From: Halorussus caseinilyticus
Lineage (GTDB): Archaea > Halobacteriota > Halobacteria > Halobacteriales > Haladaptataceae
DNA length: 64,000 nucleotides
Assembly: GCF_029338395.1 (NCBI RefSeq)
Contig: NZ_CP119809.1
Span: 2,852,001-2,916,000, forward strand
Direction of reading: 5' to 3'
Both the position numbers and the translations under genes were made by a program. The notes under the pieces are model-generated. The model did not search any database. It was not told the DNA's origin and was given only the letters and a program-made list of their open reading frames with translations. Position 1 is the stretch's first letter. The number at the start of each line of letters is the position of its first letter. Positions 2,794-25,965 of the stretch are shown one piece after another.

Positions 2794-4845
2794 GTGAACG
2801 CCGACCGGATTTTCGACGAGTTCCCCGCGCCCTCCTACCGCGGCAACCAGCGCGAGGCCCTCTCGGACATCAAAGACGCCTTCGCCGAGGGCAACGACGT
2901 AGTGCTGGTTCGCGCGCCGACCGGGAGCGGTAAGTCCCTCCTCGCGCGGTCGATTGCGGGGTGCGCCCGGACGCCCGACGACGCCGCGCCGAGCGATGCG
3001 ACCGGGGCGTACTACACCACGCCGCAGGTCTCCCAACTCGACGACGTGGCCGCCGACGACCTGCTGGACGACCTCAAAATCATCCGAGGCAAGCGCAACT
3101 ACGACTGCATCCTGCCGGGCGAAACCGACACGCCGGTCGATAGGGCACCCTGCGCTCGGGAGAAGGGCTACGACTGCTCGGTGAAACATCGGTGCCCCTA
3201 CTTCTCGGACCGGGCCATCGCAAGCAACCGGGAGATAGCGGCGATGACGCTGGCGTACTTCATGCGGACCGCGGGGTCGGAGGTGTTCCGCAAGCGCGAC
3301 GTGGTGGTGATAGACGAGGCCCACGGACTCGCGGAGTGGGCCGAGATGTACGCCGCCATCGACCTGAATCCCCGGACGGTCCCCATCTGGGACGACTTGG
3401 AGGTGCCCGAGATTACCGGCGTGGACCGCGCAGTGCGGTACGCCGACCGACTCCAGAACGCCTGCGAGCGCCGGAAAGACGAACTCGTCGCCAAACAGGA
3501 GTTGACGCCCGAAGAGGCCACCGAGCGCGACCGGTTGCAGGAACTAATCGGCGAGTTGGACTGGTTCGTGGAGGACTACCGCGACACCGAGAGCGCGACG
3601 ACGTGGGTCGTGGACCAGCAGGGCGGCGGGGGAAGCGGGATGACCATCAAGCCGATGAACCCCGAGCGGTACCTGTCTCACACCGTCTGGGAGCGCGGGA
3701 ACAAGTTCGCCCTGCTGTCGGCGACGATTCTGAACAAGCAGGCGTTCTGTCGGCAGGTGGGCTTGGACCCCGCGAACGTCGCGCTGGTGGACGTGGGCCA
3801 CACCTTCCCGGTGGAGAACCGGCCGCTCTACGACGTGACCCAAGGGAAGATGACCTACGAGTACCGCGACGACACCCTGCCGAAAATCGCCCGCACGGTG
3901 GTCCGGGTCATGCAGGAACACCGCGGCGAGAAGGGGATTATCCACGCCCATTCTTACGCGATTCAGGAGCGACTCGCCGACAGACTCGCGGAGTTCGGCG
4001 TCGGCGACCGCATCCGGACCCACGACAAGGACGACCGGGACGCCCAACTCGACGCGTGGAAGGCCACTGACGGCGAAGAGGTGTTTCTCTCGGTCAAGAT
4101 GGAGGAGGCCCTCGACCTGAAGGGCGAGTTAGCGCGGTGGCAGGTCCTCTGCAAGGCCCCGTTTCTCAACACCGGCGACTCGCGGGTCGCCCACCGCCTC
4201 GAAGAGGGCCAGTGGGCGTGGTACTACCGGGCGGCGCTCCGAACCGTGATTCAGGCCTGCGGCCGGGTCGTCCGGTCGCCCGACGACTACGGCGCGACCT
4301 ACCTCGCGGATTCGAGTCTCCTGCAGGTGTTCGACCGGGCCGAGAGCGACACCCCTGACTGGTTCCGCGAACAGGTCGAGCGAACGAGTCGCCCGGACCT
4401 TCCGGCGTTCGACCCCCGGAGCGCGAGCGAGTCGGCGGCGGGCGCGAGCGCAGGCCGTCAGAACCGGGGCGGAGTCGCCGGTCGGGGACCGGCGACGGGT
4501 CTCGCTCGGGGTCGGCGTCGGGCGGACGCTCGTCGGGCGGCCAGTCCGCGAGCGGGCAATCCGCGAGCGGACGGTCCTCCGGCGACAACTCGTCCGGCAG
4601 GAACTCCGGGAGTTCTTCGACCGGGCGAAAGAGTCCGATGGCCGACGTGTGGGACGACAGCGTGTGACCTGACGACCGGGACTCGCCCGGCCGACCAACC
4701 ACCGAAACGCGCTCGGCCGACCAAACCACGGTCTGGGCGGACTGAAAGGGGCCGCCCGCTCGCGGCCGAAGGCCGTGGTCGTCTCAGCGACCCCTATCCG
4801 AGACGAATCGAGCGAAGCGAAGATGAGTCGAGGATATGTCGCTGA
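2794..4845 (+). CDS. XPD/Rad3-like Fe-S DNA helicase, C-terminal tail frameshifted
   Basis: ATP-dependent superfamily 2 helicase. The GTG start at 2794 gives MNADRIFDEF. Walker A APTGSGKS is at 41-48. Four cysteines at 105, 120, 128 and 134 match the XPD-type 4Fe-4S domain between motifs Ia and II. DEAH is at 174-177, and a motif VI-like QACGRVVRS lies in the C-terminal helicase domain. After about residue 550 the frame becomes Arg/Pro-rich and unlike haloarchaeal protein. The frame one base earlier encodes a Ser/Gly-rich tail ending in MADVWDDSV with TGA at 4665-4667, the usual type of C-terminus. A one-base deletion near 4440-4490, in a region with two GGGG runs, would explain this. The helicase core is intact. 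Confidence 0.85.
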   Translation: MNADRIFDEFPAPSYRGNQREALSDIKDAFAEGNDVVLVRAPTGSGKSLLARSIAGCARTPDDAAPSDATGAYYTTPQVSQLDDVAADDLLDDLKIIRGKRNYDCILPGETDTPVDRAPCAREKGYDCSVKHRCPYFSDRAIASNREIAAMTLAYFMRTAGSEVFRKRDVVVIDEAHGLAEWAEMYAAIDLNPRTVPIWDDLEVPEITGVDRAVRYADRLQNACERRKDELVAKQELTPEEATERDRLQELIGELDWFVEDYRDTESATTWVVDQQGGGGSGMTIKPMNPERYLSHTVWERGNKFALLSATILNKQAFCRQVGLDPANVALVDVGHTFPVENRPLYDVTQGKMTYEYRDDTLPKIARTVVRVMQEHRGEKGIIHAHSYAIQERLADRLAEFGVGDRIRTHDKDDRDAQLDAWKATDGEEVFLSVKMEEALDLKGELARWQVLCKAPFLNTGDSRVAHRLEEGQWAWYYRAALRTVIQACGRVVRSPDDYGATYLADSSLLQVFDRAESDTPDWFREQVERTSRPDLPAFDPRSASESAAGASAGRQNRGGVAGRGPATGLARGRRRADARRAASPRAGNPRADGPPATTRPAGTPGVLRPGERVRWPTCGTTACDLTTGTRPADQPPKRARPTKPRSGRTERGRPLAAEGRGRLSDPYPRRIERSEDESRICR

Positions 4846-4870
4846 ACGACCGCGAGCGGGCGGGGGCTTT
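4745..4870 (+). repeat. Near-palindromic terminal-inverted-repeat element, copy 1
   Basis: The left end AAAGGGGCCGCCCGCTCGCG and the reverse complement of the right end agree at 20 of 24 positions. Pairing continues inward (GGTCGTCTCAGCGAC against GTCGCTGAACGACC), so nearly the whole element can fold as one long hairpin. A homologous copy lies at 25387-25501 on the other strand. Homology between the copies continues past the right end to about 4915 (a TGCGGTTGC...TGCTGTT block). It lies 78 nt after the presumed true stop of the helicase. Confidence 0.7.
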
Positions 4871-5055
4871 CTGGGCGTTCGACGCTACGACTTCTGCGGT
4901 TGCTATGCTGTTACAGAGCGAGCGGGGGCTTCCTGAGCGTCACCACGGCAGTTCCTGCGGTAGCGGTCACAGTCCGTAGCGAGCGGAGAGACGCTTCCGA
5001 GAACTGCACTCTGGCCTCACGGTCCCGACGACTCCCCCCGGCGCGAGACCGCCGA

Positions 5056-24818: not shown

Positions 24819-25226
24819 TCACACGTCCTCGGCCAACCGGTCGAGCGCCCGCCGGAGTTCCCCCTTCCGCTTCCACGCGGCGATGCGGTCCGAAACCGCC
24901 GTCACCGGCAGGTCGAGACTGACCGACGACCGCATCGTCACTCGACTGCCCTCGTTCTCGGGTTCGACCGTGACCTCGGTCTCCATCGACTCGAAGGGTC
25001 CGGCGTCCCCGCGCTGGCGGTAGACCAGACCGTTCTCGCGCTCCTCGAAGTCGAGGTGCATCGTCAATCCCCGCGCGCTGGCGGTCACGGTCCGTCCGTC
25101 GTCGGTCGATTCGACCGCTCGGACCTCGAAACTCCCCTCGTACTCGACCACTGTCTCCGGCGTGAGCGCGCGCTCTACGGACGCGGGCGGCGCGGGCACG
25201 AACGCCGAGACTTCGACTTCGCGCAT
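24819..25226 (-). CDS. SRPBCC-family (polyketide cyclase-like) protein
   Basis: A 135-residue protein with the Bet v1-like pattern: MREVEVSAFVPAPPASVERAL at the start, a beta-rich middle (TVTASARGLTMHLDFEE, TEVTVEPENEGSRVTMRSS) and a long C-terminal helix (AAWKRKGELRRALDRLAED). The start is ATG 25226; the frame upstream runs through repeat material. SRPBCC proteins bind lipids or aromatic ligands in a hydrophobic cavity; the ligand is unknown. Soluble. Confidence 0.82.
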   Translation of the reverse strand: MREVEVSAFVPAPPASVERALTPETVVEYEGSFEVRAVESTDDGRTVTASARGLTMHLDFEERENGLVYRQRGDAGPFESMETEVTVEPENEGSRVTMRSSVSLDLPVTAVSDRIAAWKRKGELRRALDRLAEDV

Positions 25227-25638
25227 CGTCGGCCCTACGCAGGTCGGGACCAAAGTGTTACGGTCGTTCTCGCGGTGGTTCGGAGGGGTCTGGTCCGTTT
25301 CGGGACGGAATCGTCGGAGATAGCATTGGTACCGCGGGAACTGCAACAGCACCGCAACCGCAGAAACTGCGAGTATGAACGTTTCAAAAGCCCCCGCCAG
25401 CTCGCGGTCGCTCAGTGACATATTCTCGCGCCGCACTTCGTTCGGCGCTCGAATAGGGGTCACTGAGACGACCAAGTAGAACGCGAGCGGGCGGCCCCTT
25501 TATCCGCCCGTGTCGGTTGGCGGGCCGAGCGTTCGCTGGCGGTTGGCGGGCCGTCGTCGCTCGGAGGATGTTCCACCTCGTCGCGCCACCGTCGCGCTCT
25601 ACCTCGGACCCTTCTCGTCCCGTCCTCGGTACGAAAAA
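25227..25638. other. 412-nt gap with the palindromic element and short direct repeats
   Basis: No gene is supported. It holds TIR element copy 2 (25387-25501), a GCGGTTGCGGTGCTGTTGC-type tract around 25340-25370, and a 14-bp direct repeat CGGTTGGCGGGCCG near 25512-25525 and 25540-25553. Confidence 0.6.
25387..25501 (-). repeat. Near-palindromic terminal-inverted-repeat element, copy 2
   Basis: Homolog of 4745-4870 on the opposite strand. The ends AAAGGGGCCGCCCGCTCGCG and AAAGCCCCCGCCAGCTCGCG are inverted repeats. Inner arms pair as CAGTGAC with GTCACTG and TATTC with GAATA. The first copy has CAGCGAC/GTCGCTG and TATCC/GGATA at the same places, so the base pairs are kept by compensatory changes. 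It lies 138 nt downstream of the minus-strand gene 25639-25965. Confidence 0.7.
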
Positions 25639-25965
25639 TCACACCACCGCGTGCAAAAGCGGGAGCGAGAGGAGCGCGAACACCCCGCCGACTGCCAATC
25701 CCGCGAGGACGATTCGCCGGATACGAAATTGCGCCGGAACCTCGCGCCGCAGGTCCGGACGGGCGGTCCACACCAGACGGTAGTAGGCGAACCCCGTCAC
25801 CGCCAGAAACGCCATCGTGGAGTAGCCCAGACCCCCCGCCAACTCCGCGCCGAACGCCATCAGGTAACTCGGGCCGAACGTGTAACACAGCAGGAATCCG
25901 AGCGCCGCGACGACCAGAAACGGCACCGGGTCTACCGGCGTGCCGAATCGGTTCCCCCATCGCAT
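25639..25965 (-). CDS. Small polytopic membrane protein, function unknown
   Basis: 108 residues from ATG 25965 (MRWGNRFGTP). A GTG 15 nt upstream is also in frame but less likely. Hydrophobic helices occupy about 13-35, 40-60 and 85-105, with a basic loop (RPDLRREVPAQFRIRR) between the last two. No signature residues. It may be an accessory membrane protein; no family recognised. Confidence 0.6.
   Translation of the reverse strand: MRWGNRFGTPVDPVPFLVVAALGFLLCYTFGPSYLMAFGAELAGGLGYSTMAFLAVTGFAYYRLVWTARPDLRREVPAQFRIRRIVLAGLAVGGVFALLSLPLLHAVV

Follow-up and report, generated by a model that had tools for sequence, protein, structure and literature searches.

Two near-palindromic segments in a 64,000-nucleotide stretch of the Halorussus caseinilyticus genome (hereafter the window) are members of a large hairpin family that appears to be uncatalogued; its elements, about 100 to 130 bases long, are present in most haloarchaeal genomes. 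The existence of this family is solid. Its fold covaries across genera, and one copy occupies a conserved place beside a single-stranded DNA (ssDNA)-binding-protein gene (ssb) on haloarchaeal plasmids. From this arrangement we infer a mechanism, given in the Discussion, in which the hairpin would act as folded ssDNA.

RESULTS

Two copies of one structured element

The two segments can be read directly from the sequence as copies of one element on opposite strands (Table 1). The 24-base ends of copy 1 agree at 20 of 24 positions, and the sequence contains both compensatory pairs that the original prediction quoted (CAGCGAC/GTCGCTG versus CAGTGAC/GTCACTG and TATCC/GGATA versus TATTC/GAATA). Folding of both copies, which had also been proposed, beats that of dinucleotide shuffles (z = -6.1 and -5.3). 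The RNA fold energies were -75.8 kcal/mol for copy 1 and -65.6 kcal/mol for copy 2, values that none of 200 shuffles equaled, and copy 1 folded as DNA gave a z of -5.35. The window matches the end motif GCGAGCGGGCGGGGGCTTT at 4 sites, versus 0.01 expected. By BLAST within its own genome, copy 1 is 100% identical over 127 bases to a copy about 2 Mb away (G000:C1:816556-816681).

Table 1. Positions in the window of the two element copies, their parts and their neighboring genes
Feature	Position	Strand	Remarks
Element copy 1, class A hairpin	4745..4870	+	R1 121.7 bits
Element copy 2, class A hairpin	25387..25501	-	R1 107.8 bits
Copy 1 5' arm: AAAG, GGG internal loop (4749-4751), CCGCCCGCTCGCG	4745..4764	+	
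Copy 1 3' arm: CGCGAGCGGGCGG, GGG internal loop (4864-4866), CTTT	4851..4870	+	
Copy 1 optional side hairpin, GGCC-GAA-GGCC type	4765..4775	+	
Copy 1 central covarying stem: GGTCG-T-CTCAGCGAC-CCC-TATCC / GGATA-T-GTCGCTGA-ACGACC	4776..4850	+	
5' flank repeat unit (GCTCGGCCGACCAACC...GGG.GG)	4690..4744	+	
3' flank repeat (TGGGCGTTCGACGC..GGTTGC) with degenerate second 3' arm (GAGCGAGCGGGGGCTTCC)	4871..4975	+	
Gene upstream of copy 1, DNA helicase-like ORF	2794..4667	+	Stop inferred; copy 1 lies 78 bp 3' of stop
Gene with start facing copy 2	24819..25226	-	Start inferred from sequence; copy 2 lies 160 bp 5'
Gene with 3' end facing copy 2	25639..25926	-	Distance 137 bp

The layout shared by the family begins with AAAG, followed by an internal loop of opposed GGG and GGG, a 13-bp stem and a variable side hairpin or linker; inside these lie a central stem, interrupted by a CxC/T internal loop and a bulge of one base, and then an apical hairpin. 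Copy 2 and many further copies have an unpaired linker in place of the side hairpin of copy 1. The apical hairpin that caps the central stem is variable and usually carries a cGNAg triloop, which was found in 73 of 76 copies; such triloops have unusual stability in DNA. At several loci (L003, L096, L158, L255 and, in class C, L269 among others), the insertion of extra hairpins into the arms (for example, GGTCACGCGAGCGAAGCGAGTGTGACC) produces a multi-branched fold.

The flanks of the copies are repetitive. A 5' flank unit, GCTCGGCCGACCAACC...GGGTGGGAT, is common to most copies in the source genome, often in tandem, and paired G-runs lie upstream of the element in 71 of 76 copies. The 3' flank unit is also repetitive and often contains a second 3' arm. 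At L034 in G007 (positions 1330-1441), a second repeat of about 110 bp, which has many occurrences in Halorussus genomes, lies directly 5' of the element; a related unit, GGTTGGGGAGG..GTGGC, precedes other copies, including those at C1:2291113 and C1:2520926 of the source genome. Long GACTCC tandem arrays begin directly after the element at G000:C1:695760, 2668672 and 2677503. Behind the helicase gene of G005 (L115), tandem repeats downstream of the element share the arm variant of their own hairpin (CGACCGGGCGG), so these repeats arise locally.

The helicase-like ORF of the window (open from 2794 to 4845) seems to be frameshifted near 4450-4480, through either a sequencing error or a real change. 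Its relatives end in ...DVWDDSV*; here that ending is found in another frame (at 4667), and the open frame continues into the element. A small ORF running through the 3' arm (ATG TCG CTG AGC GAC CGC GAG ..., "MSLSDRERAGAF") was rejected because its ATG is missing in the CCCGC...ATATCCC variant and its frame is broken in window copy 1.

Copies across the genus and the class

A whole-genome search with a covariance model of class A elements (R1), built from 27 copies, detected abundant further copies. In the source genome, R1 gave 106 matches at E < 0.01, about 95 of them full-length, on contigs C1, C2 and C5, together with forms of 43 to 63 nt that retain the end-stem only. A BLAST search with copy 1 returned at least 40 near-full copies from the same genome. 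Seventeen of 18 genomes of the genus carry copies, from 1 to at least 92 each, and one has none. Under stricter filters, R1 matched 79 of the 292 haloarchaeal genomes, spread over 36 of 77 genera.

Class A shares its terminal stem, AAAG-GGG-.../...-GGG-CTTT, with a second class, class C, and the two make up a superfamily of hairpins of about 100 to 130 nt across haloarchaea. GGGNGGG(A)CTG or a variant of it precedes the terminal stem, and the interior core is of at least two kinds, A and C. A scan of 84,980 prokaryotic genomes located the end pattern GGGNGGGACTGAAAGGGGC in at least 120 places, and every one of the 80 stretches listed is haloarchaeal. A matching 3' end lay at most 240 nt away in 76 of 90 pattern matches versus 94 of 6,215 control stretches, the latter scored with the stricter end GGGGCTTTC. 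A phage origin was rejected, as the element had no match in phage records and the pattern none in viral contigs.

Class A elements are a minority of the end-pattern matches, most of which have the class C core, GACGYAAGCACCGCAG - variable hairpin - GAGGAGCGCAGCGAG. The class C consensus has 30 pairs, 22 of them with double changes (counted without a shuffle control). A model built from class C (R2) gave matches in 125 of 145 genomes, from 50 of 58 genera, with at most 27 matches scored per genome. Because R2 also matches both window copies (E values of 2e-6 and 2e-4), the two classes look related in the end-stem at any rate, and some of the R2 matches may be class A. Pairs of elements placed head to head, 41 to 50 bp apart, are common, and the classes are sometimes mixed, as in G067, where a class C element (1718621-1718724) is paired with a class A element (1718769-1718872). 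The class C core pattern gave no match in the source genome because the copy on C5 has a variant core; R2 detects this copy.

Covariation and the putative folding strand

Among 61 distinct copies from different genera, 97.3% of cells were paired, and double changes were present in 28 of 38 pairs. The covariation score was 0.371 versus 0.112 for shuffled controls, and none of 500 shuffles reached any of the measures. Slid controls scored at most 0.044, and their paired cells dropped to 31 to 46%. For copies within the source genome, 98.4% of cells were paired and 19 pairs had double changes. These counts lean towards the model, because the alignments were fitted to it; a MAFFT alignment of the first 27 copies already contained double changes in 15 of 38 pairs. 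The original prediction was that selection maintains the fold, and the covariation on these larger alignments, which exceeds both the shuffled and the slid controls, shows that the fold is indeed under selection. With about 95 full copies in the source genome, further copies in the genus and the class, and this strong covariation, neither of the refuting outcomes named in the original prediction occurred. G007 and G009 have orthologous copies at one site, and compensatory blocks distinguish the two (CTCAGCGAC/GTCGCTGAG versus CTGGCCGAC/GTCGGCCAG). The GGG x GGG internal loop was retained in 57 of 65 cross-genus copies, and the stems around it vary freely.

In the paired columns of the + strand, G.T outnumbered A.C by 40 cells to 11 across genera (one mostly-T.G column was set aside) and, with a weak bias, by 17 to 12 in the source genome, in counts whose cells are not independent and under a model that itself scores G.U above A.C. 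On account of this excess, we took the + strand as the one that folds, as RNA or as ssDNA, an assignment that is suggestive only.

Genomic context, gain and loss

We determined the gene context of 76 copies with a simple codon-usage gene caller, with no validation against annotation. All copies were intergenic, at median distances of 150 bp (5' side) and 188 bp (3' side) from the neighboring gene; 33 lay in ++ and 16 in -- contexts, 17 between divergent (-+) genes and 10 between convergent (+-) genes. A position 3' of a gene on the same strand, which had been noted for the window copies, applies to both of them (copy 2 at the same time lies 5' of the next gene). It is no rule for the family, because many copies are found upstream of a gene or in the gap of a divergent pair. 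The 80 bp preceding the element contained a TATA-like box in none of the 76 copies, the GC-rich stems showed no obvious archaeal promoter, and the strand bias of copies along the chromosome followed no clear pattern. A search for a partner gene among recurrent neighbors yielded the plasmid ssDNA-binding protein and, beyond it, just a few orthologous loci.

Among the genomes compared, the site 3' of the helicase gene holds the element in G000, G005 and G010 only, and the L034 site in G007 and G009 only. At three sites without the element (G016, G006 and G003), an isolated GGGCTTTC was followed by element-like downstream bases, so some absences look like loss. Identical cores lie within unlike flanks at L001/L002 and L020-L022, which suggests that copies are homogenized by recombination or were copied recently. 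No target duplication was identified at two filled/empty loci, where the flanks are too diverged to define a junction.

A conserved plasmid copy beside ssb

Most copies are chromosomal and lie away from ssb. On plasmids of several haloarchaeal families, one copy is placed upstream of and divergent from the gene for an OB-fold ssDNA-binding protein, at a distance of about 400 to 630 bp and once about 1 kb. The product is SOSS-B/RPA-like, with a Pfam match only below the cut-off. In Haloarcula, the matches are mostly on large plasmids that encode a type IV coupling protein on the same record, and the element adjoins type IV secretion (T4SS) genes. The T4SS plasmid records examined have one copy each, except CP050017, which has two. 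The element-ssb distance in 11 Haloarcula plasmids was 496 to 503 bp (n = 7) or 588 to 633 bp (n = 4). Between divergent Haloarcula plasmids, the element is 87 to 90% identical, versus about 31% for the 200 bp on its 3' side and 31 to 50% for the 150 bp on its 5' side; a second conserved block, 72 to 76% identical, lies 150 to 250 bp 5' of the element. The genes beyond the element, which include toxin-antitoxin genes, run mostly in the direction of ssb.

The arrangement recurs in other genera. Homologous ssDNA-binding proteins adjoin the element on Haladaptatus plasmids (L032 and L193), and in Natrinema pJ7-1 a class C element lies 452 bp from ssb. Halorussus genomes encode the same protein, with a class A or class C element (by R1 or R2) at the corresponding place in 10 of 17 loci (L203-L219); on contig C5 of the source genome the distance is 494 bp. 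The ssb-linked copy of Halorussus plasmids is usually class C, unlike the class A copies of the window. Between ssb and the element, the Halorussus plasmid loci L204-L219 also carry a very conserved motif with flanking inverted repeats, GCCCGGAATGGTCGGTCGCGAGCGACGCGG, a candidate nick or protein-binding site.

DISCUSSION

The original prediction recognized no described family, and neither did we: Rfam 15 had no match for either class, a search around copy 1 at E <= 1 returned nothing, and no description was found in the open literature searched. An earlier description may exist elsewhere, since the search covered open papers only. The nearest published category is that of the small mobile repeats of Haloquadratum. 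SMR-A and SMR-B of Haloquadratum walsbyi are about 110 bp long, with inverted ends unrelated to known transposons, are too short for a transposase, and are present in tens of copies with no duplication and an "enigmatic" mobilization; SMR-A is mostly inserted into IS605-type transposons and PATEs (PMC3119063). Our element is similar in its length of about 110 bp, its inverted ends, its many copies and its lack of a transposase. It differs from SMR, as published, in its intergenic position (a gap between called genes for each of the 76 copies of the source genome), in its presence in most haloarchaeal genera, in folding over its full length with covariation and in having a conserved ssb-linked plasmid copy. 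As in MITEs, there are terminal inverted repeats and no coding capacity; BLAST of the source genome showed no long element with the same ends that could be an autonomous transposon, and partial matches adjoined full copies. Bacterial REP/BIME sequences are extragenic palindromes with many copies, often in inverted pairs. The haloarchaeal element shares the extragenic position, the palindromic character and the inverted pairs but is much longer and multi-helix, with conserved non-pairing loops, two interior classes and plasmid ssb synteny.

Two systems of mobile replicons are also comparable. In the F plasmid, the entering strand folds into the Frpo1/2 hairpins, which drive the early leading genes, ssb among them (PMC9849209). 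Like such leading-region ssDNA hairpins (Frpo/ssi type), the element is a long imperfect hairpin upstream of a plasmid ssb and near conjugation genes (T4SS genes in the Haloarcula plasmids), and its putative folding strand is the ssb template strand. Unlike them, it has no sequence relation to the F hairpins and no bacterial -35/-10 boxes, and it is also dispersed in chromosomes. Rep-Arvir rolling-circle replicons have a hairpin origin of about 22 nt directly downstream of the rep gene (PMC13107129). This origin is likewise a conserved hairpin-forming DNA of haloarchaeal mobile replicons, whereas our element spans 100 to 130 nt and lies upstream of ssb.

A putative fold on the template strand and a position upstream of ssb on transfer plasmids amount to the same geometry as in the F-plasmid leading region, and for this reason we favor a folded-ssDNA role in plasmid entry. 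We propose, at somewhat less than an even chance, that the element acts as a folded-ssDNA hairpin in the leading region when plasmids are transferred and that its dispersed chromosomal copies are REP/SMR-like. The hairpin would form in one DNA strand while the transferred plasmid DNA is single-stranded; the strand that folds best, with G.T favored over A.C, would be the ssb template strand, and the direction of transfer would follow the F-plasmid pattern. The hairpin could serve as a priming site, as an ssDNA promoter or as part of the transfer origin. The many chromosomal copies of Halorussus and other genera may have spread, been homogenized by recombination and be decaying through internal deletion.

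The original prediction offered a MITE-like element or a structured 3' RNA element. Its multi-copy palindrome and its selected fold stand, but neither label suffices: a 3' RNA is no general rule, given the divergent and upstream copies and the missing TATA-like boxes, and a plain MITE does not account for the fixed GGG x GGG loop, the cross-genus covariation and the single conserved plasmid copy by ssb. The leading rival, which we consider unlikely, is that the element is a selfish repeat of the SMR/REP/MITE-like kind, lacking a transposase and serving neither host nor plasmid, whose compensatory changes result from arm-to-arm correction, by template switching in the hairpin or gene conversion among copies. 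The high and very uneven copy number, the identical cores in diverged flanks (for example, L001/L002), the orthologous sites that hold the element in only part of the species, the BIME-like head-to-head pairs 41 to 50 bp apart and the internal deletion forms all fit this reading. However, the GGG x GGG and CxC/T internal loops persist across genera, and correction between arms should erase such mismatches. A single plasmid copy conserved amid diverged flanks is likewise unexpected, the 3' remnants at some "empty" sites mean that absence can be loss, and neither a partner transposase nor, at the two loci compared, a target duplication was identified.

A structured non-coding RNA read from the + strand, as its own transcript or as a UTR, is rather improbable in our estimate. 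The conserved covarying fold, the cross-genus excess of G.T over A.C, the conserved loop sequence of class C inside a covarying frame (GACGYAAGCACCGCAG ... GCGCAGCGAG) and the same-strand orientation of the downstream gene in 50 of 76 copies would suit it. These points are offset by the lack of a promoter-like box before any of the 76 copies, by the 17 divergent and 10 convergent contexts, by the cGNAg triloops, which are unusually stable in DNA, and by the failure to match any described Rfam family. The strong hairpins 78 and 137 bp 3' of window genes could be taken for a transcription terminator or an mRNA 3'-end stabilizer, but we rejected this very improbable reading on the divergent gene contexts: 17 of 76 copies are upstream of both neighboring genes. 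The hairpin, moreover, lacks a following T-run, and the plasmid copy lies in a gene-free position about 500 bp upstream of ssb.

Haloarchaeal genomes carry tens of copies each of a structured element absent from Rfam. With hundreds of copies that show compensatory changes, a mixture of cores and head-to-head pairing, it is a natural experiment on how a fold is maintained in fast-changing repeats. To our knowledge, archaeal plasmid transfer origins and relaxases are largely uncharacterized. In its widest form, which we hold to be doubtful, the folded-ssDNA reading would make these elements a hitherto undescribed class of hairpins across haloarchaea that start the copying or expression of incoming plasmids and have been amplified into chromosomes, a counterpart of the bacterial leading-region promoter/priming hairpin. 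The G-runs in the core of these elements (GGGNGGG...GGGG...GGGGG) might then fold into a quadruplex, given the high potassium content of the cytoplasm. A plasmid copy that does act as a start signal on transferred DNA would offer a direct handle on how archaeal plasmids become established after transfer.
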